The notes under the pieces are model-generated. The model had not been told where the DNA came from. It worked only from the letters and a program-made list of their open reading frames with translations, and did no database searches. 64,000 bases of DNA from Alphaproteobacteria bacterium (GTDB taxonomy: Bacteria; Pseudomonadota; Alphaproteobacteria; DSM-16000; Inquilinaceae). Below are positions 4,138-56,641 of this stretch, piece by piece (the stretch's first letter is position 1; each line of letters opens with the position of its first letter). Made by a program: the position numbers and the translations under genes. The DNA is taken from contig JANQSN010000053.1 of the NCBI GenBank assembly GCA_028284045.1, positions 1 through 64,000 of the forward strand. The letters are read 5' to 3'.

Positions 4138-6933
4138 TTAGGCCGGCACGGCGGCGGGCTCCCGCCGCGCGCGTTGCAGCAGGACCACGCCGCCCAGCAC
4201 CAGGAGGGCCGGGATGAACATCAACTCTTTCGGCGGCGCGTCGAGCGGGACGACGACCGCATCCACGACGAACCCGAACTCGATGCCGAGCTCGCGGGCC
4301 GGGCCGAAGAAGTCGACCGCCTCGACGACCACCGCGCCGTCGCTCTCCGCCAGGGTCAGGCCCGCTTGGGCCAACCGCTCGTCGGCGGTCCCGCCGGCCG
4401 CCCCCAGCGGCAGCAGCACCGTGCGCGTGACCGCGTCGCCTTCCAGCGTCAGGCCGGACACGACGACCTGCAGGTTCGCGCCATCCGGTGCGGCGGCGGC
4501 GGTCTCGAACACCCGTTGCGGTGCCGCCTCTTCGGTCGGCGGGAAGGCCATGTCCATCCAGAAGCCGGGCCGGAACAGGGTGAAGGCGACCAGCAGCAGG
4601 ATCAGCGACTCATAAAGCCGCGAGCGCACCATGAAGAAGCCTTGGGTAGCGGCGGCGAAGACCAGCATGGCGATGGTCGCCGCCGCGACGGTCAGCACCA
4701 AGTCCCAGAACCCGGCGATGTCGAACAGGATGAGCTGGGTGTTGAAGATGAACATGAAGGGCAGGGCGACGGTGCGCAGCGAATAGAAGAAGGCGGTGAA
4801 GCCGGTGCGGATCGGATCGCCCCCCGACACCGCCGCCGCGGCGAAGGAGGCGAGGCCGACCGGCGGCGTCACATCGGCCATGATGCCGAAATAGAAGACG
4901 AACAGATGCACCGCGATCAGCGGCACGATCAGGCCGTTCTCCGCCCCGACGGTGACGATCACCGGCGCCATCAGGGCCGAGACGACGATGTAGTTGGCGG
5001 TGGTCGGCAGCCCCATGCCGAGGATCAGGCTCAACACCGCCACCAGCATCAGCATGACCAGCAGGTTGCCCTGGGACAGGTATTCCACGAAGGCCGACAT
5101 GACGAGGCCGATCCCGGTCAGCCCGACGGTGCCGACGATGATGCCGGCGGTCGCCGTGGCGACGCCGATGCCGATCATGTTGCGCGCGCCGGCGACCATG
5201 CCGTTACCCAGCTCGCCCAACCCCTGGGGGATGGCCGCGACGGGCGATCCGGTCCCGCGGAAGAGGGCCAGTAGGGGCCGCTGGGTCAGCATGATGAACA
5301 GCATCAGCGCGGTCGCCCAGAAGGCCGACAGGCCCGGCGACAGCCGCTCGACCATCAGGTTCCAAACCAACACGACGATCGGCAGCAGGAAATGCAGGCC
5401 CGACTTCACCGTCGGCCCGGCCTCCGGCAGCCGGATGATCGGCGACTTCGGGTCGTCCATCTCCAGTTCCGGATAGCGGGCGCCGTAGGCCAAGAGCGCG
5501 ACATAGGCCGCGCCGATGACCACGGCGATGACCCAGCCATAGGCATCGCCCGACACCGCCTTCAACAAGGCGACGGCGTGGTAGAGGCCGATGGCGCCGA
5601 TCACCGCGTTGCCCAGGATCAGCGCGGCGGTGGAGACGATGCGGCGCGGATCGCCGCCGGGTGCCCGGCCGCGCACGCCGCGGATCAGCACCGCCTGCAC
5701 CGCGAACACGGCCGCGACGGCGACTAGGACCCAGACCGACCGGTCGAGCAGGGCCGCGAACTGCAGCAGGTAGTAGGCCGCCCCGGCGAGGATCAGCACG
5801 GAGGAGACGGTGATCAGGAAGGAGATCGCCATCCATTTGCCGTCCAGCGGCTTGCCCGGCTTGGGCAGGCCGGACATGCCGCGCTTCAGCGCCTCCAGAT
5901 GCACGATATAGAGCAGGGCGATGTAGGAGATCACCGCCGGCAGGAAGGCGTGCTTGATCACCTCGACATAGGGGATGCCGACATACTCGACCATCAGGAA
6001 GGCGGCCGCCCCCATCACCGGCGGCATGATCTGGCCGTTGACGGAGCTGGCGACCTCCACCGCGCCCGCCTTCTCCGAGGTGAAGCCGACGCGCCGCATC
6101 AGCGGGATGGTGAAGGTGCCCGTGGTGACCGTGTTGGCGATGGACGAACCGGAGATCAGCCCGGTCATGCCCGACGCCACCACCGCCGCCTTGGCCGGCC
6201 CGCCGCGCAGGTGGCCGAGCAGCGAGAACGCCACTTTGATGAAGTAGTTGCCGGCCCCCGCCTTGTCCAACAGGGCGCCGAACAGCACGAACAGGAAGAC
6301 GAACTTGGTGGAGACGCCGAGCGCGATGCCGAAGACGCCCTGATCGCTCAGCCAGTACTGGTCCATCGCGCGGGCGAAAGAGCGCAGCTCGTAGCGGATC
6401 ATGTCCGGCAGCCAGCCAGCGTCGCCGAAGAAGACATAGGCCATGAACACCAGCGCCACGGCCATCAGCGGCGGCCCCAGCGACCGCCGGGTCGCCTCCA
6501 GGAGCAGGATCAGCCCCAAGGCTGAGACGACGATGTCGAGATCGGTCGGAATGCCCGGCCGGGTCGCCAGCACGTCGTAGAACCAGAACCGGTAGGTCGC
6601 GCAGAAGGTGCCGACCAGGGCCAGCACCCAGTCTTGCGCCGGGATGCGCCGGCGCGGCGAGCCCTTCAGCGCCGGATAGGCCAGGAACGCCAGGAACACC
6701 GCGAAGCCAAGATGGATGGAGCGCGCCTGGGCATCGTTGATGATCAGCCAGCCGGTGATGAACGGCAGCGGCGAGGCGTACCAGAGCTGGAACAGCGACC
6801 ACAGAAAGGCGACGACGGTCAGCGTCCAGGCGATCGCCTGGCTGTCCGGCTTGCGCGCGCCGGTGTCGACGGCGGCGACGAGGTCCTCAAGATCGGTGGT
6901 GGTCCTGTTGTCGGTCTTCTGGATGTCGACCAT
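4138..6933 (-). CDS. TRAP transporter fused permease (TAXI type, DctQM)
   Basis: The protein is about 931 residues and highly hydrophobic, with about 18-20 membrane segments. The small-subunit-like part comes first (WFYDVLATRPGIP region), followed by the large DctM channel domain, with MTGLISGSSIANTVTTGTFT and VLSLILGMGLPTTANYIV as clear family motifs. A periplasmic or cytoplasmic extension precedes the last helix. It imports a solute with the sodium gradient, using the TAXI binding protein encoded upstream at 7143-8126. The start at 6933 has GGAG 5 nt away; an ATG 14 codons upstream (6975) lacks a good site. The transported solute cannot be read from sequence. Confidence 0.9.
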   Translation of the reverse strand: MVDIQKTDNRTTTDLEDLVAAVDTGARKPDSQAIAWTLTVVAFLWSLFQLWYASPLPFITGWLIINDAQARSIHLGFAVFLAFLAYPALKGSPRRRIPAQDWVLALVGTFCATYRFWFYDVLATRPGIPTDLDIVVSALGLILLLEATRRSLGPPLMAVALVFMAYVFFGDAGWLPDMIRYELRSFARAMDQYWLSDQGVFGIALGVSTKFVFLFVLFGALLDKAGAGNYFIKVAFSLLGHLRGGPAKAAVVASGMTGLISGSSIANTVTTGTFTIPLMRRVGFTSEKAGAVEVASSVNGQIMPPVMGAAAFLMVEYVGIPYVEVIKHAFLPAVISYIALLYIVHLEALKRGMSGLPKPGKPLDGKWMAISFLITVSSVLILAGAAYYLLQFAALLDRSVWVLVAVAAVFAVQAVLIRGVRGRAPGGDPRRIVSTAALILGNAVIGAIGLYHAVALLKAVSGDAYGWVIAVVIGAAYVALLAYGARYPELEMDDPKSPIIRLPEAGPTVKSGLHFLLPIVVLVWNLMVERLSPGLSAFWATALMLFIMLTQRPLLALFRGTGSPVAAIPQGLGELGNGMVAGARNMIGIGVATATAGIIVGTVGLTGIGLVMSAFVEYLSQGNLLVMLMLVAVLSLILGMGLPTTANYIVVSALMAPVIVTVGAENGLIVPLIAVHLFVFYFGIMADVTPPVGLASFAAAAVSGGDPIRTGFTAFFYSLRTVALPFMFIFNTQLILFDIAGFWDLVLTVAAATIAMLVFAAATQGFFMVRSRLYESLILLLVAFTLFRPGFWMDMAFPPTEEAAPQRVFETAAAAPDGANLQVVVSGLTLEGDAVTRTVLLPLGAAGGTADERLAQAGLTLAESDGAVVVEAVDFFGPARELGIEFGFVVDAVVVPLDAPPKELMFIPALLVLGGVVLLQRARREPAAVPA

Positions 6934-7061
6934 CGATGCTCCGGACGTGAATGCCTGTTCCTGTTTGCGTGCCAAGCTCTTGCGGCCCGGTCACCGGTAC
7001 CTGGTGGACGACGGTCCCATATGGATCTGCCGTGCCGTCGCGGCGGGCGGTACCCAAAGGA

Positions 7062-7112
7062 CGGCGGGGCCGGGGTCGTCTCTGCCTGACAGAACGACCA
7101 CCGGCCCCGCCG
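7062..7112 (-). terminator. GC-rich intercistronic hairpin between TAXI binding protein and permease
   Basis: Positions 7062-7079 pair with 7094-7112 (18/19 bp, one bulge) around a 14-nt loop. On the minus strand it follows the binding-protein stop (7143) and precedes the permease start (6933). There is no T-run downstream, so it is more likely an attenuator or mRNA-stabilising hairpin that keeps binding-protein levels above permease levels than a full terminator. Confidence 0.55.
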
Positions 7113-7142
7113 GAAACTCAAGCCATCAGCCGACGATGCCGA

Positions 7143-8126
7143 TCAGCAATCGTCGCGCAGACCGGCCGCGCAATAGTAGCTCATCGCGCCGTCATGGACC
7201 GGCGCCGACATGCCGTCATTGGCCATCTGCTCCGGTGTCAGGCCCTGATAGGCGGGGTGAAGGGCGATGAACTGGTCGAAGTTCTCGAACACCGCGCTGA
7301 CGATCGTCTCGACCGCTTCCGTCGACAGGGCCGTCGTGGTGACGAAGGTCGCCTTGACGCCGAAGGTGGTCACGTCGTCGGGGTTGTTCGGGTACATGCC
7401 GCCCGGCACCGTGGAGTAGGCATAGAACGGGTTGTCTTCGATCAACTTATCGACGACCTCGCTCTGGACCGGGATGATGTGGCTCTCGCAGCTCGTGGTG
7501 GCTTCCTGAATGGTGCCGCTGGGGTGGCCGACGGTGAAGACGATGACGTCGACATTGTTGTCGCACAGCGCCTGGGACTGCTCCGCCGTCGCCAGCTCCG
7601 ACGCCTGGGCGAAGTCGTCGACGGTCCAGCCATAGGCCTCCATCAGCACCTCCATGGTGCCGCGGGCGCCGGACCCCGGATTGCCGATATTCACCCGCTT
7701 GCCGACCAGATCCTCGAAGGTCTCGATGCCGCTGTCGGCGCGGGCGACCACGGTGAACGGCTCGCCATGGATGGAGAAGACGGCGCGCAGGTCCGGATTG
7801 GCCTCCGGGAAGTTCTCGTGGCTGCCGTTGAAGGAATGGAACTGCCAGTCCGACTGGACGACGCCCATATCCATCTCGCCACTGGCCAGCGCGTTGAGAT
7901 TGAAGATGGAGCCACCGGTGCTTTCGACGGACACACGGATGCCGTGCTCGGCCCGGTTGGCGTTGACCAGGCGCTGGATCGCACCGCCGGTCGGGTAGTA
8001 GACGCCCGTGACACCCCCAGTGCCGACCACGACGAACTGCTCGTCCTGCGCCGCAGCGTCTGCCGCCACGCCGATCGCCACCGCAGCGGCAAGAGCGATG
8101 GCGGATACCGACTTCACATATCTCAT
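7143..8126 (-). CDS. TAXI-family TRAP transporter solute-binding protein
   Basis: The 327-residue periplasmic protein has an N-terminal signal peptide (VSAIALAAAVAIGVAADAAA, cleaved near residue 26). The mature part starts FVVVGTGGVTGVYYPTGGAI and continues with STGGSIFNLNALASGEMDMG, the hallmark of the TAXI (TRAP-associated extracytoplasmic immunogenic) receptors. The later motif GKRVNIGNPGSGARGTMEVL also fits. It captures the ligand and delivers it to the fused permease encoded downstream in the same orientation. GGGAG lies about 10 nt before the ATG. TAXI receptors are known for small organic acids or amino acids such as glutamate; the ligand here is unknown. Confidence 0.93.
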   Translation of the reverse strand: MRYVKSVSAIALAAAVAIGVAADAAAQDEQFVVVGTGGVTGVYYPTGGAIQRLVNANRAEHGIRVSVESTGGSIFNLNALASGEMDMGVVQSDWQFHSFNGSHENFPEANPDLRAVFSIHGEPFTVVARADSGIETFEDLVGKRVNIGNPGSGARGTMEVLMEAYGWTVDDFAQASELATAEQSQALCDNNVDVIVFTVGHPSGTIQEATTSCESHIIPVQSEVVDKLIEDNPFYAYSTVPGGMYPNNPDDVTTFGVKATFVTTTALSTEAVETIVSAVFENFDQFIALHPAYQGLTPEQMANDGMSAPVHDGAMSYYCAAGLRDDC

Positions 8127-24451: not shown

Positions 24452-24537
24452 GGAGGGGTGGCCGAGTGGTTAAAGGCAGCAGACTGTAAATCTGCCCGCG
24501 TAAGCGTACGGTGGTTCGAATCCATCCCCCTCCACCA
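24452..24537 (+). tRNA. tRNA-Tyr(GTA), integration site of the mobile element
   Basis: This class II tRNA of 86 nt has acceptor GGAGGGG paired with CCCCTCC, anticodon loop CTGTAAA (anticodon GTA), a long variable arm (CCCGCGTAAGCGTACGG), T-loop TTCGAAT, discriminator A and an encoded CCA (24535-24537). It is intact. The mobile element starts at or just after its 3' end, and the recombinase gene runs into it on the opposite strand. Confidence 0.97.
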
Positions 24538-26062
24538 TTCTGGAATCCGGAGTTCCAAAACCGGCTAACACCTTGAAAGGCAAGGTCAGAATCCCGGTTC
24601 GAAAGCCCTTGTTCCGGCGGTAGGGCAGTCTTCCGCCAAAGACCAGCCTGAGGACCATTCTCTTGTCCTCCAGACGGTCAGAGTTCCAGAGTTGACAAGG
24701 GTTTGCGAGGAACGCGCAGGCGGTTCGAAACGTCTGGTCGAAGGTGCGCAGTGGCCTGCTGCTCGTGCGCACTCGCTCACTGAGCAGAGCCTTCTCTTCC
24801 TCCAGCTTTCTGATCCTGGACTCGTAGGCCGCTATCAGCGTGGGACTGTCCGCTTCCACGATGCGGTCCATCAACTGATCCGTCTGACGCGCGATCTTCG
24901 CGATATCTGCCTTCGCGTTTGCAGCGCGCTCCTGCGCCCTCCCCATACGGTCGTCCCACAGTTCACGGAGCATATCGCAGGCAGCGGCGAACATGTCCGA
25001 CGCCGGCCGCACGCTTTCCAGCAGAGCTTCGAATTCCTCCTCCAGATGTTCCTTGCGGATCGTCTTGCGTCGTTCCGGGCAACCTGGCTGATAGCAATAG
25101 TAGTAGGGGTACTTGGCAGCCCGGCCCTTTGACCAGGCCGCCGTCATCGGTTCGCCGCAGCAGCCACAGGTTACGAAGCCGCGCAGCGGAAAGTCCGCAT
25201 TGATGTCCTTGCGGATGGGGGCCCTGTTGGTGCCCTTTAGGCGGTCCTGAACCTTCTTCCAGGTCTCGAGGCTGATGAGCGGCTCGTGCTTCGCAGGCAG
25301 CAGTCTGATATTCCAGTCGGGAAGGTCGATGTAACCGGCGTAGATGGGCCGCTCCAGCATAAGCCGAACATAGTTGAATACGATCTCGCCTTTGGGGTTG
25401 CGCCTGACGGGTGGGTTTGCTTTGAGGAACCGAAGAATCTCTGTCTGTGTTTCAAATCGGCCCGACGCGAAGCCCTCAAATACCTCGCGCACCAAGGTCG
25501 CATTTGGTTCGTCCGGCACAAGCATGGAACCATGACCGCTGACCTTCTCGTAGCGATAGCCCACGGGCGGTGCGAAGACCCAGTAGCCGTTCGTGACACG
25601 GGCGCGCATGCGGTTGACCACCTGCTCGGCGTTTTTCTGTCGCTGGTGCTGGGAGACGGAGGCCAGCAGGTTTTCGACAAGAATGCTGTCGGAGTCGTCG
25701 CCGAACTCGATGGACGGGGACTCGAGCTTGCCCCCGGCCCCCTGAATGGCGGTGCGAAGCTGGATATGGGCCTCAATGCCCCTCGCAAGGCGGCTGATAT
25801 CGTCGATGATCACGACATGCTGGCGATGCCTGCGATGCTTCCTTAGGAAGGCCAGCATGGCCTGCATACCGGTCCGGTCGATCAGCCCGCCCGAAACACC
25901 TTCGTCGCGGAAGGTGTCCACGACGTCATAGTCCATGCGCGCCGCAAACTCGCGGCAGCGCGTCTCCTGTGAACCGAGTCCGTGGCCTTCCCGGACCTGC
26001 TTGGCGCTGGACACTCGGCAATAGATGACGGCTTGCTGTTTCTTGTTCTCCTTCATGTTCAA
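24470..26062 (-). CDS. Large serine recombinase (integrase) whose 3' end runs into tRNA-Tyr
   Basis: The protein of about 530 residues has a resolvase catalytic domain (about 10-160, nucleophile Ser in YCRVSSAKQ, then DDISRLARG), a recombinase domain (about 170-290, RVTNGYWVFAPPVGYRYEKV), a zinc ribbon (CGCCGEPM ... CYQPGC) and a C-terminal coiled coil. It would integrate and excise the element. The start may be TTG 26062, overlapping the preceding stop (TTGA), or ATG 26056; coupling to the gene before is evident. The last 22 or so codons (VEGDGFEPPYAYAGRF and on) are the antisense strand of tRNA-Tyr and its stop is inside the tRNA. The native C-terminus would therefore change when the element excises. 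Confidence 0.88.
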   Translation of the reverse strand: MNMKENKKQQAVIYCRVSSAKQVREGHGLGSQETRCREFAARMDYDVVDTFRDEGVSGGLIDRTGMQAMLAFLRKHRRHRQHVVIIDDISRLARGIEAHIQLRTAIQGAGGKLESPSIEFGDDSDSILVENLLASVSQHQRQKNAEQVVNRMRARVTNGYWVFAPPVGYRYEKVSGHGSMLVPDEPNATLVREVFEGFASGRFETQTEILRFLKANPPVRRNPKGEIVFNYVRLMLERPIYAGYIDLPDWNIRLLPAKHEPLISLETWKKVQDRLKGTNRAPIRKDINADFPLRGFVTCGCCGEPMTAAWSKGRAAKYPYYYCYQPGCPERRKTIRKEHLEEEFEALLESVRPASDMFAAACDMLRELWDDRMGRAQERAANAKADIAKIARQTDQLMDRIVEADSPTLIAAYESRIRKLEEEKALLSERVRTSSRPLRTFDQTFRTACAFLANPCQLWNSDRLEDKRMVLRLVFGGRLPYRRNKGFRTGILTLPFKVLAGFGTPDSRMVEGDGFEPPYAYAGRFTVCCL

Positions 26063-26502
26063 GTACGCTTTTCCGATGTTCTGGCCTTGTTCTCCTCATA
26101 TTCAGCCACGGCGACGAGCAGGCCTTCGATCAACGAGTTGTCCGGACTTTCGTCCAACTGCAGGGATGGTGACTCCAACTTTCCGCCTGCGCCATCAATC
26201 ATCCGGCGCAGCGTCATGTAGGTCGTCATGCTGCGAGCCAGGCGGCTGACGTCATCGATAAGCACCACCACTTCGTCCGATCGATGTGATCGCAGGAAAG
26301 TCAGCAGAGCCTGTATGCCGGGCCGATCGACCGAATTGCCCGAAGCATGGTCGGAAAAGACCTGGGCCACATCGTAGCCGTTTTGCTGCGCATAGTCCCG
26401 GCAACGCTGTTCCTGGGCGTGGAGCCGCTGATCGCGGCAATCCTCTCCAATGCTCGCGACACGACAATAAATAACGGCATCTTTATTTTCAAATTTACTC
26501 AT
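26059..26502 (-). CDS. Small serine-recombinase paralogue lacking the catalytic serine
   Basis: The 147-residue protein is a stand-alone resolvase catalytic fold without recombinase, zinc-ribbon or coiled-coil parts. It matches the large recombinase closely in places (GAGGKLESPS, IDDVSRLAR, VDRPGIQALL against IDRTGMQAML), so it looks like a truncated duplicate. The nucleophile position reads YCRVAS, with Ala where the large protein has YCRVSS. The codon is GCG, so it is probably inactive in strand cleavage. It may act as a dimer partner, directionality factor or decoy. GGAGGA lies 8 nt before the ATG; it overlaps both neighbours (8 nt and 4 nt). Confidence 0.8.
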   Translation of the reverse strand: MSKFENKDAVIYCRVASIGEDCRDQRLHAQEQRCRDYAQQNGYDVAQVFSDHASGNSVDRPGIQALLTFLRSHRSDEVVVLIDDVSRLARSMTTYMTLRRMIDGAGGKLESPSLQLDESPDNSLIEGLLVAVAEYEENKARTSEKRT

Positions 26503-26776
26503 TATATTTTTCCTCCTTTGGCGTTTCTGGCGCCACAACATCTATGAAGCTTCTGGAAATCGAACGTAGTTTTGATTCTACACCATTCGAATCGCCCGTT
26601 TCACCTATTCGTGCAGCAATCCCCTCAACTTGCTGGGCCGGATGCAGCCCAAAGGCCTGATCGGCAAAGCTCTCCATGATCGTCCAAAGCGTGTGGATAA
26701 GTTCCACCTTCTGCTTCTCGGAGATGTCGAAGTGGTCGACATATTTCCGGTACTTTTCCATATTGGGCGGCATCAC
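26495..26776 (-). CDS. Small hypothetical protein, first gene of the recombinase operon
   Basis: The 93-residue protein is acidic and mostly helical (YRKYVDHFDISEKQKVELIH, TLWTIMESFADQAFGLHPAQ), without membrane segment or DNA-binding motif visible. Its stop overlaps the ATG of the small recombinase by 8 nt, and the three genes end at tRNA-Tyr. Being first behind the SOS-type promoter, it could be a recombination directionality factor, but that is inference from position only. The family is not recognised. Confidence 0.7.
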   Translation of the reverse strand: MMPPNMEKYRKYVDHFDISEKQKVELIHTLWTIMESFADQAFGLHPAQQVEGIAARIGETGDSNGVESKLRSISRSFIDVVAPETPKEEKYNE

Positions 26777-26943
26777 GACCTCCTGGCCCGGCTGCCCGCC
26801 ACGCCCGAAGGCGTCACAAGGTGGAGACGGACGGCAGCGGCCTTCCGAAAGTTGCCTTGCCTGTCCGTCACCTGTTCCACGTCTTCATCCTTTCTTGTTC
26901 TTATTCACATCTCGCCACCGGCAAGCACCCGGCAAAGAGATGA

Positions 26944-26958
26944 GAACATTATAGGAAC
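26944..26958 (-). promoter_or_regulatory. LexA (SOS) box GTTC-N7-GTTC over the -10 of the recombinase promoter
   Basis: On the minus strand the sequence reads GTTC-CTATAAT-GTTC, an exact match to the direct-repeat LexA box of Alphaproteobacteria (GTTCN7GTTC). The seven central bases contain the -10 hexamer, so LexA bound here would block RNA polymerase. This predicts that DNA damage induces the recombinases. Confidence 0.65.
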
Positions 26959-26976
26959 ATTTGTCTAGGAATGCAA
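26948..26976 (-). promoter_or_regulatory. Promoter of the recombinase operon
   Basis: On the minus strand there is a perfect -10 TATAAT (26953-26948), a 17-nt spacer and -35 TTGCAT (26976-26971, matching TTG of the consensus). The predicted start lies near 26941, leaving a leader of about 165 nt before the 93-residue gene. Confidence 0.6.
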
Positions 26977-28377: not shown

Positions 28378-28698
28378 TCAGTCCTCGCCTCTTGCGGTCA
28401 GAAGTACGATCACCGGGCAGCTTCCGCCCGCCGGGATCACACGTCGGCTGTGCAGGCCGAGGTAGTCGCAGCGCTGATAGATGCGTGCGGCCGGGTCGTT
28501 CCCGATGGCGGTGTAGCTGTAGCGATAGCGCAGGTGCGGTGTGCCCAACGTCATGGCGGCCAGCACGACCCCGCCGATCACCGGTATCCAGACCAGACTC
28601 CGCACGCGGACGAACCATGGACGCGGGGAAGGCGCACGCTTCTGCTGCCGGCAAGGACGTGGTTCGGCGATCACTTTCGAGCGGATGCGATCCGTCAT
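28378..28698 (-). CDS. Hypothetical membrane protein of the transfer operon
   Basis: The 106-residue protein has a basic N-terminus (RSKVIAEPRPCRQQKRAP), a membrane helix (LVWIPVIGGVVLAAMTLG, about 33-50) and a periplasmic-type tail with YRYSYTAIGNDPAARIYQRC and GGSCPVIVLL; the two cysteines could pair. No family recognised. The ATG at 28698 overlaps the stop of the coupling protein gene by 4 nt. A longer frame to 28791 would lie inside that gene and is rejected. Confidence 0.68.
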   Translation of the reverse strand: MTDRIRSKVIAEPRPCRQQKRAPSPRPWFVRVRSLVWIPVIGGVVLAAMTLGTPHLRYRYSYTAIGNDPAARIYQRCDYLGLHSRRVIPAGGSCPVIVLLTARGED

Positions 28699-30437
28699 CG
28701 CGACGTCCTTTCGGGGTATGTTAGGCGCAGGACAGGATCGCCACGCAGGCGTCCACCTTCGACCGGGTTGTCGCCGACACGGTCCCGCCACGGATCGACC
28801 TGTCCGTGATGCACCATGGTCAGGCGCGTGGGTCGGAGGCCGCGGACGAACAGCCAGGCCTGATCGCGCGGCATGGCCAGGATTTCGTCGGGCGTCATCA
28901 TCCGGCGGCCCAGTTCGCCGCTGGTCACGTTGAGGTCGGTGACCTCGGACTTGTAGGCGTAGTCCTGCTTGCGGATGGTCGCCTCGGACAGCATGTCGGA
29001 GACCCGCTTGGCCTGGTCGAAGGCGTTCAGCCCGGCATAGATTTTGACGTCGGCATAGGCGTCGATCGCCGCAGCGGCCTCACGCCCGTACTTGCGCTGC
29101 AGGCCGGCAAAGGACTGGATGTAGAAGTCCGCGGAGACATGCAGGCCGCGCATCGTCTCCAGATCGGATTCGATGTCGACAAAGCGGTAGTTCAGCATTT
29201 CTTCGCCGACGATGTGCACCGGCCGCCCGGCCGGGTGCTGCTTGCAGGCCGCGAGCAGGTTGTAGTTCAGGATCGAGATGAACGGACCGAAGCCGCGGCT
29301 GTGGCTGAGCGGCGCCATGACGAACAGGATGATCTGGCGGTTGCGCAGATCGGCGATGTTGTGGACCGCCGTTCGGCCGATCCCGGCAAGTCTGCCGCCC
29401 TGGTTGAAGCTGATCAGGCTCTGGGTCGCGCCTTCCAGGAAGGATGCGAAGTTCTCGTCGTTCTTCTTCGACCGGTGCAACAGGTTGGCCGCTTCGCTCT
29501 TCAGAAACGCGACGATCGGATCGGCCGCATGCACCGTTTCCAGGTTCTTGCGGACATAGACGAGCAAGCGCAGGAAGGCCGCCGGATCGTTGAGCACGGC
29601 AAACACATCTGAAGGCGTGCACCGGGCCGGGTCGATCAGGGCAAGCGCCAGAATGGCGGTCGAGATGCAGCGCCGGCTTCCTTGCCGGAAATACAGGTTC
29701 TCCTTCACACCCTCTTCGGGCAGGTGAAGCTGCGCCAGGTCCTGGGAGCGAGTGACCGCGTCTTCCCGCGTCGCGTCCGTCGCGTAGACCGCATCGAGCA
29801 CCGACTGATAGAGGTTGAGCTCGATGTCGCCGCAAGCCTCGAAATGCCGGCGCGTTGGGTTCACGCACCAGACCTCGAACCCGAGGTCCCGAAGCGTCGG
29901 TGCCAACATGGGGCCGAGTTCGAGCTTGGGGTCCGAAACGAATAGCGACTTCCCGAGAAAAGGTTGGTGCAAAACACTGCTGACGACGTAGCAGCTTGTC
30001 TTTCCACCGCCGGGCGCCATCTCGGTCAGCGAGAACGGTGTCTTCGCCGGCATGTAAACCGGCTGTCCGCGTTCATCGAGACCGAGCAGGTTGCCGCTGT
30101 TCGGATCGTCCATGCTGAGCGCAGCCATCTCGTCCGGCGTCGCCTCGCGGGCCGAGCCGTGATGGTTGGTAACGCGCAACGATCTCGCCAGATTGCGGCG
30201 GAGGCGGTAGTCGCGGACCAGCAGGTGCAGACCCTTCACGGCGCCGACGGCCGCCACGGTGCCGGTCATGCCGCAGAGCAGGTATTGCTGCCAGTCACCC
30301 GTCACATCCGGCCAAAGGCCGTAGGTCGCGAACGCGCCGATGGCGCCGACCGTGAAGGCGGTGTTGACGGGACCAGCCGCAGGCGTGACCGCGACGGGTG
30401 CACGGACTCCAATGGCCCGCCTAGGCATGACCATCAT
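28695..30437 (-). CDS. Type IV coupling protein (VirD4/TraG family)
   Basis: The 580-residue ATPase has two N-terminal membrane helices (about 25-41 and 52-74), Walker A APGGGKTS (141-148), the nearby FVSDPKLEL typical of VirD4/TraG, and a C-terminal TraG domain containing HIVGEEMLNYRFV, where a Walker-B-like acidic pair sits, and RKYGREAAAAIDAYADVKIY. It would bring the relaxase-DNA complex to a secretion channel at the inner membrane. It overlaps the upstream gene by 17 nt. The relaxase gene lies 26 kb away at 56961-58256, and no channel genes are seen. Confidence 0.9.
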   Translation of the reverse strand: MMVMPRRAIGVRAPVAVTPAAGPVNTAFTVGAIGAFATYGLWPDVTGDWQQYLLCGMTGTVAAVGAVKGLHLLVRDYRLRRNLARSLRVTNHHGSAREATPDEMAALSMDDPNSGNLLGLDERGQPVYMPAKTPFSLTEMAPGGGKTSCYVVSSVLHQPFLGKSLFVSDPKLELGPMLAPTLRDLGFEVWCVNPTRRHFEACGDIELNLYQSVLDAVYATDATREDAVTRSQDLAQLHLPEEGVKENLYFRQGSRRCISTAILALALIDPARCTPSDVFAVLNDPAAFLRLLVYVRKNLETVHAADPIVAFLKSEAANLLHRSKKNDENFASFLEGATQSLISFNQGGRLAGIGRTAVHNIADLRNRQIILFVMAPLSHSRGFGPFISILNYNLLAACKQHPAGRPVHIVGEEMLNYRFVDIESDLETMRGLHVSADFYIQSFAGLQRKYGREAAAAIDAYADVKIYAGLNAFDQAKRVSDMLSEATIRKQDYAYKSEVTDLNVTSGELGRRMMTPDEILAMPRDQAWLFVRGLRPTRLTMVHHGQVDPWRDRVGDNPVEGGRLRGDPVLRLTYPERTSR

Positions 30438-37694: not shown

Positions 37695-37731
37695 AAGCCC
37701 GGATGCGGCGGGATGGACCGCATCCGGGCTT
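37695..37731. terminator. Bidirectional terminator hairpin
   Basis: A 14-bp stem AAGCCCGGATGCGG (37695-37708) / CCGCATCCGGGCTT (37718-37731) with a 9-nt loop. It lies between the DUF736 gene (rightward) and the small-protein operon ending at 37751 (leftward), so it can serve both. Confidence 0.7.
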
Positions 37732-37750
37732 TCAGGGCGTGGGAAAGGGT

Positions 37751-37945
37751 TCAGTGCTTCTTCGAGCGCGGCTGGCCGGTCAGGATAGCTTCCAGCTCAA
37801 TCACGGCTTCCATCTGATGCATTTGCTCGCGCATGACTTCTGACGTCATTAGCATGTTCTTTCGCTGTCGTTCGGTAATCTGATCTATCAAATCTTGAAC
37901 ATCAGAAATGTCGATGGTGACTTTATCAATATCCGGCCCATTCAT
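37751..37945 (-). CDS. Small hypothetical protein, third of a small-protein operon
   Basis: The 64-residue protein is helical with heptad-like spacing (VTIDISDVQDLIDQITERQR then MREQMHQMEAVIELEAILTG), probably a short coiled coil. No family recognised. The ATG overlaps the stop of the preceding gene by 4 nt. A strong hairpin terminator follows 20 bp after its stop. Codon use is more AT-rich at its start than that of the neighbours. Confidence 0.6.
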   Translation of the reverse strand: MNGPDIDKVTIDISDVQDLIDQITERQRKNMLMTSEVMREQMHQMEAVIELEAILTGQPRSKKH

Positions 37946-40981: not shown

Positions 40982-43315
40982 ATGAGAATCGAGCAGATCG
41001 AGCTGGGCAATTTCCGTAAACTGCAAAGCGTCAATATCGGCGTTTCGGAGCAGAAGACCGTTTTCGTCGGGGCAAACAATAGTGGGAAAACTTCCGCGAT
41101 GTTTGCGCTCCGCTACTTTTTACTGGAACGTGAGCGATCAAAGTTCACGTTGAATGATTTCACACTCTCTTACTGGCCCACCATCGAGGAAATGGGCCGC
41201 TCCTGGGAGGACGCAAAGGCAGCCGCGCAGGAGCTCCCTGCTCCGGATTGGGCACCTTTCCTCCCATTCTTGGATGTCTGGCTCGTTGTAGAAAAGAGCG
41301 AGGCACACTTCGTCCAGAAGCTTATCCCCACGCTGGACTGGGATGGAGGACGCCTTGGCGTCAGGTTGAGGCTTGAACCAAGAGACCCTGAACAACTCCA
41401 GAAGGACTTTCTAGCCGCCCGGGAAGAGGCAAAAGCGATAGAAGCTGTTGATGAGCGCGGCGATGGTGGAGGCTCGGGCAAGAGCGGGAGCAGCCCGGTC
41501 ATTTTGTGGCCTAGGAGCCTCACGGAGTATCTGCAGCGACGCTTCAGCAGCCAATTCACCGTCAAAGCCTACATTCTTGACCCAGCGAAGTTGGCTAAAC
41601 CAGAGCACGGGCTTGCCACACCCCAAGCTCTTGACGGTGATGCTACGCCGATTGAGGGGGAGCCATTTAAGGGGCTCATTCGTATTGATGAAATTCCTGC
41701 GCAGCGGGGCTTCGGCCAGCTTGATGGCCCGTCGGATCCAGACGAGGACGGGCCTGCGGTCCGAGCTTCAACCACTCGGAGGCTATCTGAGCAGTTGCGG
41801 AGGTACTGGAATCGGCACCTCGATCCATTTGATAGCCCAGATGCCAAAGATATCGAGGCGCTGCGGGCGATCGAGCACGCGCAGGGGGCTTTTGATGACC
41901 GCCTGCGCGAAGGGTTTGGTGAAGCCCTCAATGAGGTTGAGGGATTGGGCTATCCTGGTGTCACCGACCCTCGCCTGAAGATTGCCACCCGTCTGAAACC
42001 CGTAGACGGATTGAACCACGAAGCGGCTGTTCAATACATGATCCAGGTGCTGGATGGCGAAAGCGCCATCGACCTGTATTTGCCCGAGGACTCGAACGGG
42101 TTAGGCTATCAGAATCTGATATCGATGGTCTTCCGTTTGATGAGCGCACGGGATGCCTGGATGCGTGTCGGAAAAGCAGCGTCGAAGTCCGAAGCGGTGT
42201 CGGACGCCCTCATTCCGCCCCTACATTTGGTATTGATTGAAGAGCCGGAGGCATATCTCCATACACAGGTACAACAGGTCTTCATCCGGCAGGCATACAA
42301 GATTCTCCGTAACCATAAAGAGCTAAAGAAGAAAAAATCTACGCTGACGACGCAGATGATCGTCAGCACCCACTCAAGCCACCTTGCGCACGAATGCGAT
42401 TTCGATTCCCTGAGATATTTCCGACGACTTCCCGCTTCAAGAAAGGGCGTCCCGCTCTCTTCGGTCGTCGACTTGGGTGGTGCCTTCGGCACAGATGTAC
42501 AGACGAAACGCTTTGTAACTCGATATGTGAAGGTCACGCATTGCGACCTGTTTTTCGCGGACGCTGCGGTGCTGGTGGAAGGACCTGCCGAGCGCATTCT
42601 GGTTCCGTTTTTTCTGCGGCACCAATCGGACTTGCAGGATTTACAAGAATGCTACGTGACGTGGCTCGAAATTGGAGGCAGCCACGCACACAGGCTTAGG
42701 AGCCTGATCGAGCAACTCGGGCTCACAACCCTCATCATAACCGATCTGGACGCAACGGACGTTAACAACAAATCCGTCGCGCCGGTGCGTGGCGCAAAAC
42801 AGAGAACCCGCAACACTACCCTCAAGACATGGTGCCCAAAGCAGGATGATCTTGACACTTTGCTCGATCTGAAGCCGGAGAATAAGGTCACAGATTATCC
42901 TGCAAATGGCTTTTCGATCAGGGTTGCCTATCAATGTCCGATCGAGGTTGATTTCAAAGGCGCGAAGGCCGAATTCGTTTCCCACACTCTGGAAGATGCC
43001 CTTGCGGCTCAGAACCTCCATCTCTTTTCATCGGGTGACGGCAAGGGATTGTTCACCAAGTTTAAGGTGGCCATCGACGGTAGCTCAACGATCCCCGAGC
43101 TGCAGGCGAATCTGTTTGATGAGCTGAGAGAGGGAGGCAAGGCGGAATTCGCGCTTGATCTGTTAGAATTGGAGAACCCCGGCACTCTACAGCCACCGCT
43201 GTATATTCGCGAAGGCCTGGTTTGGCTGACCACACAACTTAGGAAGGTTCAGGAGGACCTTGGGGTCCCGTTGCCCGTGCGTGAGGCGCCTGAGAAGTCG
43301 GTGAAGGCATCGTGA
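40982..43315 (+). CDS. OLD-family ATP-dependent endonuclease (class 2 OLD, Gabija GajA-like)
   Basis: The 777-residue protein has an N-terminal ABC-type ATPase with Walker A GANNSGKTS (30-38), signature NGLGYQNLI (372-380), Walker B LVLIEEPEAYLH (417-428) and H-loop VSTHSSHL (461-468). A TOPRIM nuclease domain follows with VLVEGPAERILV (Glu 533) and IITDLDATD (586-593). OLD proteins with an adjacent UvrD-type helicase form class 2, which includes GajA of the Gabija antiphage system. GajA is usually near 580 residues, so this protein is clearly longer, mainly through an insertion in the ATPase lobe (about 130-345). AAGGGG lies 8 nt before the ATG. It overlaps the helicase gene by 4 nt. Confidence 0.88.
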   Translation: MRIEQIELGNFRKLQSVNIGVSEQKTVFVGANNSGKTSAMFALRYFLLERERSKFTLNDFTLSYWPTIEEMGRSWEDAKAAAQELPAPDWAPFLPFLDVWLVVEKSEAHFVQKLIPTLDWDGGRLGVRLRLEPRDPEQLQKDFLAAREEAKAIEAVDERGDGGGSGKSGSSPVILWPRSLTEYLQRRFSSQFTVKAYILDPAKLAKPEHGLATPQALDGDATPIEGEPFKGLIRIDEIPAQRGFGQLDGPSDPDEDGPAVRASTTRRLSEQLRRYWNRHLDPFDSPDAKDIEALRAIEHAQGAFDDRLREGFGEALNEVEGLGYPGVTDPRLKIATRLKPVDGLNHEAAVQYMIQVLDGESAIDLYLPEDSNGLGYQNLISMVFRLMSARDAWMRVGKAASKSEAVSDALIPPLHLVLIEEPEAYLHTQVQQVFIRQAYKILRNHKELKKKKSTLTTQMIVSTHSSHLAHECDFDSLRYFRRLPASRKGVPLSSVVDLGGAFGTDVQTKRFVTRYVKVTHCDLFFADAAVLVEGPAERILVPFFLRHQSDLQDLQECYVTWLEIGGSHAHRLRSLIEQLGLTTLIITDLDATDVNNKSVAPVRGAKQRTRNTTLKTWCPKQDDLDTLLDLKPENKVTDYPANGFSIRVAYQCPIEVDFKGAKAEFVSHTLEDALAAQNLHLFSSGDGKGLFTKFKVAIDGSSTIPELQANLFDELREGGKAEFALDLLELENPGTLQPPLYIREGLVWLTTQLRKVQEDLGVPLPVREAPEKSVKAS

Positions 43316-45219
43316 TGTCCGATGTAGCCACCGAATCGAATGCTAACCTCGATGACCCGGTCGATGACGAGATTGCGGGATTTCTTAATCCTGCCAAGCC
43401 ACAGAGCTTCTTCCTTTATGCCGGTGCGGGTTCGGGTAAGACACGCTCACTAGTAAAGGCGCTCAATGCAATTCGGCGAGCCTATGGTCGTCAGCTAGCT
43501 TATCAAGGTAAACGAGTTGGGGTCATTACCTACACGAATGCCGCATGCGACGAAATTCAAAGTCGTATTGATTTCCACCCACTCTTCTACGTTTCGACGA
43601 TCCACAGCTTTGCCTGGGAGTTAATCAAGGGTTTTAGTGGCGATATTCGAGAATGGCTCAGGACGGACCTACGAGCAGATATTGAAAGACTGACTGCGGA
43701 AGAGGCTAAGGGACGTCCCGGCACAAAAGCATCCATCACCCGTCAAGCGCAGATAGAATCCAAGACAAGGCGTCTTGGTCGCCTCGACACAATACGGAAA
43801 TTCGCATACAGCCCGACTGGTGAGAACCGCGAGCCTAATTCGCTCAATCATTCTGAGGTGATTGCGATCTCTGCCGACTTCATTACTTCTAAGCCGCTAA
43901 TGAAAAGGATTCTGATCGGAAGATTCCCATTTCTGCTTATAGATGAGAGCCAGGATACAAACCGGCGGCTGATGGACGCGTTTCTGGAGACGGCTAAGAA
44001 ACACGATTCAGAGTTCGCACTGGGTTTAATCGGTGATGTTATGCAGCGCATATACGCTGACGGAAAGGAAAGGATCGAGCAAAGTCTTCCAGCATCTTGG
44101 CCTACGCCATCAAAGAAGCTCAATCACCGTTGCCCGAAGCGCCTAGTCACCCTCATCAATAAAATTCGTTCGGATGTGGATACGCATGTGCAGGTTCCGC
44201 GAACGGATGCGATTGAGGGATGTATTCGTCTGTTCATCTGCAGGTCGGATGCGAATGACAGAAGGGCAGTCGAAGACTCCGTTCGGCGACAAATGGCGGA
44301 GAAAACTGGCGACGAGAGCTGGCGTGAGCACGATTCCTGTAAGATTCTTACGCTTGAACATCATATGGCTGCAGTTCGTCTTGGCTTCAGCGGTGTATTT
44401 GATCCACTGTACGGGATAGATGAATGGCGTACCGGCCTGCTGGATGGGAGCTTTCCTCCAACGCGGTTCTTTGCCCAGAATCTGTTGCCGTTGGTGCAGG
44501 CACAACAGAATGGTGACAGATTTGCCGTGGCGAGGATCGTTCGCAGCAATTGTCCATTCCTCTCAGCCCAAGCGCTCAAGGAGGCAGGTGATCCTGGCAA
44601 TCTGCTCCGGTTGGCACAGGCCGGAGTCGATGCGTTGGCGGCTCTCTGGAGAGGGGGTGAGCCGACTTGCGGGCAGGCCTTGAAGAGCGTTGCGGAAAGC
44701 GGGCTCTTCGAGATTCCCGACCGACTATCGCCGGTCCTTAGGGTTCTCCAGAAGGGCGTCTCGGACGGCGCGGAACAGCTCGAACCGGATGACCCGGTTA
44801 CGCCGGAAACTTCAGCTCTTCTTACTTTCCTTGAGGCACCTTTCGGGCAGATTGATCTTTATCAGCAGTATGTGTCGGGCCTCGCTCCCTTCGATACCCA
44901 CCAAGGTGTCAAGGGGCGGGAGTTTGATCGAGTCATGGTGATCATGGACGATGCGCAGGCGCGCGGGTTCATGTTTGGATACGAGAAGTTGCTTGGTGCT
45001 AAGGCCGCGACGCAGAATGAAATGAAGAATGCCGCAGACGGAAGAGAGACGGGTATCGATCGTACACGCCGCCTCCTCTACGTTACCTGCAGCCGTGCGG
45101 AGAGAAGCCTTGCGCTTGTTGCTTATACAGAGAATCCAACGGCAGTTAAGTCACACGTCTTGCATAACGGCTGGTTTACCGAAGAGGAAATTGATGTGGA
45201 GATCGAAGGCGCAAAGTGA
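43312..45219 (+). CDS. UvrD/PcrA-like helicase (GajB-like partner of the OLD nuclease)
   Basis: The 635-residue superfamily 1 helicase has Walker A AGAGSGKT (37-44), motif Ia-like VGVITYTNAACDEI, motif Ic VSTIHSFAWEL, Walker B FLLIDESQDTNR, motif III GLIGDVMQRIY, motif IV-type LNHRCPKRLV and the late motifs VKGREFDRVMVIMD and RLLYVTCSRAERSLALV. ATG overlaps the nuclease stop (ATGA). In Gabija the helicase binds the nuclease complex and produces DNA ends or senses nucleotides; a similar role is likely. GajB is around 490 residues, so this is longer. Lower GC than the neighbouring transfer genes suggests separate acquisition. Confidence 0.88.
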   Translation: MMSDVATESNANLDDPVDDEIAGFLNPAKPQSFFLYAGAGSGKTRSLVKALNAIRRAYGRQLAYQGKRVGVITYTNAACDEIQSRIDFHPLFYVSTIHSFAWELIKGFSGDIREWLRTDLRADIERLTAEEAKGRPGTKASITRQAQIESKTRRLGRLDTIRKFAYSPTGENREPNSLNHSEVIAISADFITSKPLMKRILIGRFPFLLIDESQDTNRRLMDAFLETAKKHDSEFALGLIGDVMQRIYADGKERIEQSLPASWPTPSKKLNHRCPKRLVTLINKIRSDVDTHVQVPRTDAIEGCIRLFICRSDANDRRAVEDSVRRQMAEKTGDESWREHDSCKILTLEHHMAAVRLGFSGVFDPLYGIDEWRTGLLDGSFPPTRFFAQNLLPLVQAQQNGDRFAVARIVRSNCPFLSAQALKEAGDPGNLLRLAQAGVDALAALWRGGEPTCGQALKSVAESGLFEIPDRLSPVLRVLQKGVSDGAEQLEPDDPVTPETSALLTFLEAPFGQIDLYQQYVSGLAPFDTHQGVKGREFDRVMVIMDDAQARGFMFGYEKLLGAKAATQNEMKNAADGRETGIDRTRRLLYVTCSRAERSLALVAYTENPTAVKSHVLHNGWFTEEEIDVEIEGAK

Positions 45220-53554: not shown

Positions 53555-56500
53555 ATGGCTGCGGACAAAGTGACTTCCCGAGAAAGTGTCCTCACCGGTC
53601 TCAACGAGTTGATCGGGCAAAGGGATACTGTTGATTTGGAACGGGAGATCCGTCGTCTGTCGATAGCTCTGGGGAACGCTGCTGGTAAATTCGGCCTATT
53701 TTTCGCCGTTTGCAACAATCGAAGGGTTGAAGACTACGTTTCGGCAAAGCTGCTAATCGCGTCAAAAGGTCCGACGACCGTTGAACTCCACCTGAAACAG
53801 GCTGACACAAGCCTCCTGGACGCCTTGAGCGCAGCTCCTTCTGGAGGCGGACCGCTGATCGTGCATGGCCTTCAAAGACTTCTTCCGTCTTCTAGACCAC
53901 AGAAGGGCCAAAGAGATCGCATCTTGCAGGAGATGCAGTTGCGGCGGGAGCAGTTTCGCGAGTTGGCACGACCGGTGCTGCTCTGGATGCCGGAGTATGC
54001 CTACAGGATGGTTGGTCAAAAGGCAGTGGACTTCTGGAGCTGGCAAACGGGCGGGTACTTCTTCCCCGACGAATTGCCCGAGAGCGGCCTGACCCAGACG
54101 ATTGCGATAGGCGGAGACGTTAGTGGATCAACAATTGTGACCGGCCGCGATGCCAGAGTGGGGCAGAGGCGGGACGTCGAGTCACCAGAGTACACACAGC
54201 GAGAACAGATTGGCGGTTTGCGAGAGCGATGGCTGCCAGTGCTGGCGGGTAGAGCAGAGGAAGTAGCCGAGCTGAAGGCGCGGCTGAGATCCCGCGACAC
54301 CAGAGCGGTGCTCGTCTCCGGAATGGCCGGGATCGGCAAGACTGTTCTTGCCATGCATGTCGGGTCCGAACTTCGAGGTGATTTTCCCGACGGGACAGTC
54401 TTTGTCAGTCTCCGACAGGACGACTTGACGGCCGCGATGAGGAGTGTGGTCTCGTCATTGGGAGCGTCGGCGCGGATTGCGGCGGACGAGGTGACGCTCC
54501 GAGCGACCTATCACGCCGTCCTCAATCGTAGCCACGCCTTGCTCATCTTCGATGATGTCGCGGAGCCGCGAGCGATTCTGCCCATTCTACCGGAACCGCC
54601 CAGCAAGGCGATCATCACATCGCGTGTGACCGAGAAGCTCCCTAGAGTAGCAAGCTTGGTTCTGGATGCGCTCTCGCCAGCCGAGGCCGTTGCCTTGCTA
54701 CGGAGCCTGGTTGGCATAGATCGGGTGTCAGATCAGGAACTGGAGGAGTTGGCGTCGCTCCTGGATTATCTGCCGCTGGCTCTCAGCCTCGCGGGCAGCC
54801 TGCTTCGTGCGCGGCCGGAACTGAACGTTGGCGATTTTCGAACCGAGGTCGAGAGTTATCAGCACAAGCGTCAAGAAGCAGGAGCCGCCTCTTCTCTCGA
54901 TGCAAGCCTGCAGGTGGCTTGGGATGACCTGAGAAAAGACCACCTTGAGTTCGACCGGAGATGGCTGTTGCTTTCAGTCTTTTCTGGCCAGTTTAGTGAA
55001 TCGGCAGCAGGCGCGATTGTCTACGGTAAGGACTTCGATGAAGGAATGCCGCCAGCGGTCCGTGATCATCTTGCTGTGCTGACGCATCGCGGCTTTGTCA
55101 ATGCGTTTGAGGACGGGGCCAGATACCAAGTGCCCGTACCGATCAGGCATTGGGCAGTATCGCACCTTACCGGCGATGAGGCTGACCAAGCCTCGCTGCG
55201 ACACGCGCATTATTATCTTCAGGTCTTGCAGCATTCAGAGGAGCTTTTTCTCGAGGGGGGTGATTCATCCGTCGCCGGGCTGGATCTCTTCGATCGCGAG
55301 CGACCGAACATCGAAGCAGCATGGCTATGGGCCGCCGAGCACGATGCGGGCATTCTCGAAATCGAAGAGCTGTGCAGCGGGTTCGCGGATGCAGCTCCCA
55401 ACATCGTGAGACTGCGGCTCCATCCCGACGTCCGGCTGGCGCGGCTGCATAGAGCAGTCGATGCAGCAGAGCGTCTGGGTGACAAAGGAGCCTCAAGCCG
55501 GCATTTGGCTTCACTCGGTAATGCGGCAGCCGAACAGGCGAGATTCGAGGAAGCACGGAAATACCTTACGCGGGCACTTTCGATATCGAGGGACATCGGA
55601 GATCGCCGGAGCGAGGATAACGCACTTCTTGGGCGAGCCGTTGCGCTCGCCCAAATGCAACACCTCGATGAAGCGACGGTTGACCTGGAGCGGTTGCTTC
55701 GGAATACGCGGGAAACTGGCGACCGTCGAGGAGAGATGTTTGCTCTCCATAATCTTGGCCGGATCTACGCTGACCGTGGGATACTCGCCAGAGCCGTGGA
55801 GCGGTACGAGCAGGCACTCACCGGGTATCGGGAGGTCGCAGACGGTTACGGCGAAGGACTGGTTCTCGCCGACCTTGGCGCCGCGTACCGTCAACAGGGT
55901 AATCTTGAAAAAGCGGTAGAGTGCTTGCAGGCCGGCTTAAGTATATCTCAGCGTTTTGGAGATCGGCGGAGGGAAGGCAGCATGCTGGCCGAACTGGGCA
56001 TGGCCTTCGAGAACATAGGCAGTATCGATGGAGCCATTCAGCACTATCAGAAAGCGCTCAGTATAGCCCGGGAAACCGGAGGCCGATCAGAGGAAGCACA
56101 GGTGCTGGGCAATCTTGGACTTGTTTACGCCAGACAGGGCGATTTCTCGCTTGCACAGAGCTACCTCCAGGAAGCGCTTGCCCGCGATGAAGAGTTGCTC
56201 GGGCCGAATCACCCTCGCGTTGCGACGGATGTCAGCAACATCGGGCTTGTGTTGCAGGATCAGGGCGACTTGGAAGGGGCGCGCGCGGCGTTCGAGCGGG
56301 CTCTCGCAATTGACGAGTCCGCCCTGGGAACCAATCACCCGAACGTATCCATTCGTCTCAACAACCTGGGCAGCGTGCTGCTGGCGAGTGGTGAAACTCT
56401 TGAGGCTCGCGACATTTTCGAGAGGTCACTGGCAATCGCGAGCCGGACGATGGGACCGGAACACACCTTTTCCGGGACGGCCCAACTCAATCTGGGACTT

Positions 56501-56641
56501 GCTCATCGGGTCCTGGGGGAATCCGAGGAGGCGAAGAGGGCCTTGGCCAGGGCGTTGTCGGTTTATGAGCAGGCGTTGGGGCCAGATCATCCCGATACGC
56601 GAAGAGTTCGAGAGATTATCGAAAGCCAGGTGGCTTATTGA
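53555..56641 (+). CDS. STAND (NB-ARC/TPR) NTPase with an uncharacterised N-terminal domain
   Basis: The 1028-residue protein has four parts. Residues 1-170 form a novel-looking N-terminal domain (GLFFAVCNNRRVEDYVSAKL; LARPVLLWMPEYAYRMVGQK; FWSWQTGGYFF). A linker (170-225) contains the IGGDVSGSTIVTG pattern common in STAND proteins. The NB-ARC NTPase follows with Walker A GMAGIGKT (256-263), Walker B LLIFDDV (329-335), the ITSR sensor (354-357) and LPLALSLAG (winged-helix junction). Tetratricopeptide repeats run from about 640 to 1010 (EEARKYLTRALSISRDIGDR and following), of the type seen in NLR-like sensors. It looks like a ligand-sensing conflict protein whose activation oligomerises it and releases an N-terminal effector; no known effector domain is recognised. 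Confidence 0.82.
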   Translation: MAADKVTSRESVLTGLNELIGQRDTVDLEREIRRLSIALGNAAGKFGLFFAVCNNRRVEDYVSAKLLIASKGPTTVELHLKQADTSLLDALSAAPSGGGPLIVHGLQRLLPSSRPQKGQRDRILQEMQLRREQFRELARPVLLWMPEYAYRMVGQKAVDFWSWQTGGYFFPDELPESGLTQTIAIGGDVSGSTIVTGRDARVGQRRDVESPEYTQREQIGGLRERWLPVLAGRAEEVAELKARLRSRDTRAVLVSGMAGIGKTVLAMHVGSELRGDFPDGTVFVSLRQDDLTAAMRSVVSSLGASARIAADEVTLRATYHAVLNRSHALLIFDDVAEPRAILPILPEPPSKAIITSRVTEKLPRVASLVLDALSPAEAVALLRSLVGIDRVSDQELEELASLLDYLPLALSLAGSLLRARPELNVGDFRTEVESYQHKRQEAGAASSLDASLQVAWDDLRKDHLEFDRRWLLLSVFSGQFSESAAGAIVYGKDFDEGMPPAVRDHLAVLTHRGFVNAFEDGARYQVPVPIRHWAVSHLTGDEADQASLRHAHYYLQVLQHSEELFLEGGDSSVAGLDLFDRERPNIEAAWLWAAEHDAGILEIEELCSGFADAAPNIVRLRLHPDVRLARLHRAVDAAERLGDKGASSRHLASLGNAAAEQARFEEARKYLTRALSISRDIGDRRSEDNALLGRAVALAQMQHLDEATVDLERLLRNTRETGDRRGEMFALHNLGRIYADRGILARAVERYEQALTGYREVADGYGEGLVLADLGAAYRQQGNLEKAVECLQAGLSISQRFGDRRREGSMLAELGMAFENIGSIDGAIQHYQKALSIARETGGRSEEAQVLGNLGLVYARQGDFSLAQSYLQEALARDEELLGPNHPRVATDVSNIGLVLQDQGDLEGARAAFERALAIDESALGTNHPNVSIRLNNLGSVLLASGETLEARDIFERSLAIASRTMGPEHTFSGTAQLNLGLAHRVLGESEEAKRALARALSVYEQALGPDHPDTRRVREIIESQVAY

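Follow-up and report, generated by a model that had tools for sequence, protein, structure and literature searches.

Does a GTTC-N7-GTTC repeat lying over the promoter of a serine recombinase operon place the movement of an alphaproteobacterial genomic island under the control of the host SOS repressor? The question arises from a 64,000-nucleotide stretch of DNA, referred to here as the window. We consider it very probable that the repeat is a LexA operator and that the operon below it moves a conjugative or mobilisable element inserted at the 3' end of a tRNA-Tyr gene.

The candidate operator, its promoter and the host SOS motif

The initial annotation had reported an exact direct repeat, GTTC-CTATAAT-GTTC, on the minus strand at 26944-26958, with a TATAAT -10 element inside its seven-base spacer. 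Both are present in the sequence (GTTCCTATAATGTTC; TATAAT reading from 26953 to 26948), and the -10 (26948-26953, minus strand) is a perfect match to consensus. The candidate -35 element, TTGCAT (26971-26976, minus strand), is placed 17 bp from the -10 and agrees with consensus at 3/6 positions. The predicted operator therefore overlaps the core promoter, with TATAAT inside the spacer and a weak -35. This had been called the only good promoter upstream of the operon, which was correct for the -10 and overstated otherwise, given the poor -35 and a promoter scan in which the site with TATAAT at 26948-26953 was not among the listed promoters.

One alternative is that a GTTCN7GTTC stands before the operon by chance and is not bound by LexA. 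The bare pattern is indeed common, with three matches in the 64-kb window vs. 1.73 expected and 66 matches genome-wide vs. 54 for the reversed control, and by itself it is weak evidence. The box rises above chance because of its extended form, its score with a PWM built from other organisms, and its conservation before homologous operons.

All exact boxes of the host genome were inspected, and those with A/T-rich spacers have in common a longer form, tATGTTC-N6-TGTTC. The window box (AATGTTCCTATAATGTTC) is a complete fit to this form (extended operator AATGTTCCTATAATGTTCTCATC, 26939-26961, minus strand). ATGTTC-N6-TGTTC has eight exact matches in 4.32 Mb, two of which are inside the window; when up to one mismatch was allowed, the extended motif gave 41 matches vs. 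3 for the reversed control over the same 4.32 Mb. The host has one lexA and one recA gene, and the motif stands at its SOS genes: the genes preceded by extended-motif sites include an imuA-like gene, imuB, parE and one for a PA0069-family radical-SAM protein, and the imuA, imuB, parE and PA0069 boxes score 21-29 bits by a PWM made from integrase-operon sites. The site upstream of recA (GTACTCTTTTTGTTC) has one core mismatch and also fits the extended motif. The site upstream of lexA (GTTTATCTTTTGTTC) has one core mismatch as well, with a poor extended fit and 7.7 bits by the PWM; the host's own lexA box is degenerate. That the integrase operon carries a LexA operator thus holds as a prediction, since the same extended motif marks the host SOS genes.

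For scoring of the window, the PWM was made solely from integrase operons of other organisms, leaving out the window site. The site at 26944-26958 reached 25.7 bits, and the next best site in 64 kb reached 12.4 bits. A second exact GTTCN7GTTC (GTTCTGGCCTTGTTC, 26078-26092, plus strand) lies inside the 160-aa gene of the operon, ∼15 bp before the start of the large serine recombinase (LSR) gene. It fits the host extended motif exactly, yet it scores just 11.3 bits; this second box is weak and may be a chance match.

Survey of homologous LSR operons

Relatives were collected with the LSR as query in the genome_contigs set (57 loci) and with the 160-aa catalytic domain as query in 385 genomes of the class. 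Pooling of both sets gave 69 non-redundant LSR upstream regions. Absence of the box before homologous operons had been named as a possible refutation of LexA control, and the search went the other way: 30/69 upstream regions contain GTTC-N7-GTTC in operon orientation, vs. a mean of 0.81 loci (maximum 4) in dinucleotide shuffles of the same regions. Other spacer lengths, from 0 to 20, each gave 0 to 5 matches, compared with 30 for N7. The signal was found first in the genome_contigs set and was seen again in the genomes of the class, which were drawn separately (loci L116-L138). The spacer controls, the shuffles and the extended motif with its fits at host SOS genes all contradict the chance reading, which we reject as scarcely credible.

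Many families share the box, and its position is consistent. In the genome_contigs set, boxes lie in one of two ranges relative to the LSR, ∼-380 to -500 or ∼-840 to -1140, are nearly always operon-oriented and are rare elsewhere in the loci. Measured to the conserved domain of the small gene that precedes the LSR, the distance is 77-176 bp in loci without an extra gene, and 519-821 bp in the seven loci with an intervening extra gene. Given this consistent position, work on one tractable relative would speak for the whole family, members of which include L071 (Shinella granuli) and L069 (Rhizobium albus).

The box was found in 30/59 alphaproteobacterial vs. 0/11 other loci (Fisher p=0.0016), a contrast that is partly confounded by phylogeny. 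L066, with an exact box in reverse orientation, is included in this count, and the poor site of L063 is left out. Strong reverse-orientation sites occur in L066, L062 and L076, loci without an exact forward box. The beta/gamma LexA box CTGTN8ACAG was looked for before the box-less homologs and was found in none of the searched loci, alphaproteobacterial or not. About half of the alphaproteobacterial members, among them the most closely related (L058, L119 and L148), have no exact operon-oriented box; LexA control is therefore not obligatory in the family. On the LSR tree the box label is clustered but requires 14 changes, and control has thus been gained or lost many times.

Two side observations were made among these loci. 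L148 is a second LSR element of the same family in the host genome (contig C6, LSR at ∼6412-7959, 63% identical). Its best LexA-like site (GTACCATTTTTGTTC), a recA-type variant, is located inside the small gene and not upstream of it. L019 has an AT-rich LexA-type box and two overlapping GTTCN7GTTC, together covering 1516-1530 and 1607-1632, in the intergenic region that separates a likely mraZ gene of the cell-division cluster from an EamA gene; judged from this arrangement, SOS control of division genes is possible in that host.

The operon and the element at tRNA-Tyr

The operon had been described as a three-gene recombinase operon. It does have three genes; the first, however, does not encode a recombinase, and the second encodes a catalytic domain that lacks the nucleophile. 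The first gene (26495-26776, minus strand; likely start at the ATG at 26773, with AGGAGG ahead) encodes a protein of 93 aa, whose homologs are found directly upstream of the LSR in relatives. Its conserved pattern is FDL..QK.EL...W.IM.SFVD.AFG.HP.Q (alignment A1). The protein gave no match in Pfam, PHROG or NCBIfam, and a search of known structures (PDB) with it gave nothing convincing. A structural model, good for the first ∼45 residues only, predicts a confident short helix followed by a long helix. We propose the protein as a candidate directionality factor, as it is conserved within the same operon.

This small protein also raises the alternative that the box is bound by a repressor borne on the element, or by the small protein itself, instead of host LexA. 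It is common for a mobile element to encode its own repressor, and a ∼93-aa protein is nearly always beside the LSR, standing directly before it or before the catalytic-only paralog in 65/71 loci from several phyla. However, the box equals the host SOS motif, flanks included, and it is present in 0/11 non-alphaproteobacterial loci even though 8/11 of them carry the small protein. In addition, the two confidently modeled helices contain no evident helix-turn-helix. Binding by an element-borne repressor is thus quite improbable in our view, and host LexA remains the preferred regulator.

The second gene (26059-26541, minus strand) is flanked by the small gene and the gene of the active LSR and encodes only the catalytic domain of a serine recombinase (160 aa; Pfam Resolvase, with an alignment to LSRs). 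Such a catalytic-only gene was found in four loci (the window, L058, L064 and L124), and all four have Ala in place of the nucleophile Ser while retaining the RLAR stretch. Among LSRs, the nucleophile Ser was found by pattern in 63/64, the remaining row being truncated. Because the nucleophile is missing, the known mechanism of DNA cleavage is not open to the 160-aa protein. From its sequence and gene order, it is likely a regulatory pseudo-recombinase subunit.

The third gene (24470-26062, minus strand) encodes the 530-aa LSR, which has Resolvase, Recombinase and zinc-ribbon domains, the nucleophile Ser and a PHROG integrase match, and is classed as an LSR accordingly. Its final codons fall within the tRNA-Tyr gene (24452-24537, plus strand), the integration target, at whose 3' end the element joins. 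Nearly all scanned relatives end at a tRNA as well (Arg, Ser, Phe, Leu, Ala, Met, Lys or Val). A conjugative coupling protein of VirD4/TraG type (28695-30437, minus strand) and a relaxase of MobA/VirD2 type (56961-58256, minus strand) are encoded in the window, and homologs of both are found next to further LSR operons in the family; many family members, box-bearing and box-less alike, have a coupling protein or relaxase homolog no more than 8 kb away. An integrase, a relaxase and a coupling protein are thus found together at an attachment site, as in an integrative and conjugative or mobilisable element. Viral contigs contained only three clear LSR relatives, and the LSR family is therefore not mainly a phage family. 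In L064 and L070 the family LSRs adjoin a likely phage terminase large subunit gene, and some members may be prophages.

The cargo includes the Gabija defense genes gajA and gajB (40982-45219, plus strand) and an NB-ARC/TPR defense protein (53555-56641, plus strand). ARAGORN predicted a putative tRNA-SeC in the element (37699-37781, plus strand). The left end of the element lies at tRNA-Tyr. A search for attR on the 99-kb contig detected no other copy of the tRNA 3' end, the sole good match being the tRNA gene. Related genomes have the gene order tRNA-Tyr, tRNA-Gly, tuf. In the host, however, tRNA-Gly is found on contigs other than that of the element, one copy being near imuA, and this left the right end unplaced.

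Proposed regulation and comparison with known systems

In an undamaged cell, host LexA would occupy the GTTC-N7-GTTC across the -10 and keep the operon off. Assembly of RecA on single-stranded DNA would lead to LexA cleavage and derepression, and all three products of the operon (the small protein, the inactive recombinase domain and the LSR) would then be made at the same time. The element could be cut from the tRNA site or become able to enter it, and the small protein may supply the direction of excision. The site, its likeness to host SOS boxes, its conserved place in homologs, the make-up of the operon and the tRNA location are all seen in the DNA, and LexA repression of the integrase operon is, at the sequence level, well supported.

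LexA might also control the operon with a different outcome, namely integration or a burst of recombinase, while excision and transfer are under another switch. An LSR alone favors attP x attB recombination and needs a directionality factor for excision, for which the operon offers a candidate only. Moreover, no strong box is found at the TraG or relaxase genes, all other PWM scores in the window being 12.4 bits or less. On the other side, the element was observed in the integrated state, and the conserved small protein of the same operon is a fair directionality-factor candidate. We regard integration or a recombinase burst as an unlikely outcome, although a serious one, and we infer damage-triggered excision of the element. 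The presence of the box before about half of the related alphaproteobacterial integrases points to DNA damage as a signal for movement of these elements.

Such control would clearly tie horizontal transfer to the SOS response in Alphaproteobacteria, and elements with phage defense systems such as Gabija could leave damaged cells. A broader proposal is more tentative and, in our estimate, falls somewhat short of an even chance: that these loci form an undescribed, widespread family of tRNA-targeting alphaproteobacterial elements with a LexA-controlled operon and a new directionality protein, that some of them also tune the integrase by means of a recombinase subunit lacking the nucleophile, and that DNA damage in the host would thereby directly fire the escape of a defense-carrying island.

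The closest known case is that of the SCCmec ccr genes of Staphylococcus. These also encode LSRs of a mobile island, and their LexA-mediated induction through an SOS box in the promoter was reported by Liu et al. 2017, as described in PMC9728531. The window LSR is not an SCC Ccr: among the CcrA, CcrB and CcrC models it matched CcrB and CcrC far below their cut-offs (CcrB 89.5 bits, cut-off 900), and this assignment was rejected. The ccr box is a Firmicute LexA box that differs in sequence from GTTC-N7-GTTC, SCC inserts at rlmH (orfX) whereas the window element is at a tRNA, and the window element has relaxase and coupling protein genes, unlike SCCmec. We are not aware of a described SCCmec homolog for either the small protein or the dead paralog.

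Integron integrases resemble the window operon in having a LexA box that overlaps the -10 of a recombinase gene, which is retained in some lineages and was repeatedly lost (PMC3108266). They differ in using a tyrosine recombinase for cassette shuffling and a beta/gamma-proteobacterial box. SXT acts through the element's own repressor SetR. In SXT/R391 ICEs and SGI1, transfer is SOS-linked and mobility is raised by DNA damage, and predicted LexA motifs of SGI1 precede sgiAT and the activator genes sgaDC, not the integrase (PMC4542580, PMC9927553). Both have tyrosine integrases, in contrast to the serine recombinase found here.

GTTCN7GTTC is the accepted SOS motif of Caulobacter, in a paper that does not mention an integrase or recombinase (PMC12700426). 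The operator and the host class are alike, but the targets there are chromosomal SOS genes and not the integrase of a mobile element. The initial annotation had considered a direct LexA link to serine recombinase excision undescribed for this element type. LexA acting directly on a serine recombinase of a mobile element is already on record for SCCmec ccr (PMC9728531); for the tRNA-targeting alphaproteobacterial LSR family, no report of LexA control was found in the open-access literature searched, a negative of little weight. Recombinases under direct LexA control are thus known from SCCmec ccr and integrons, and such control is here proposed for a different element family.
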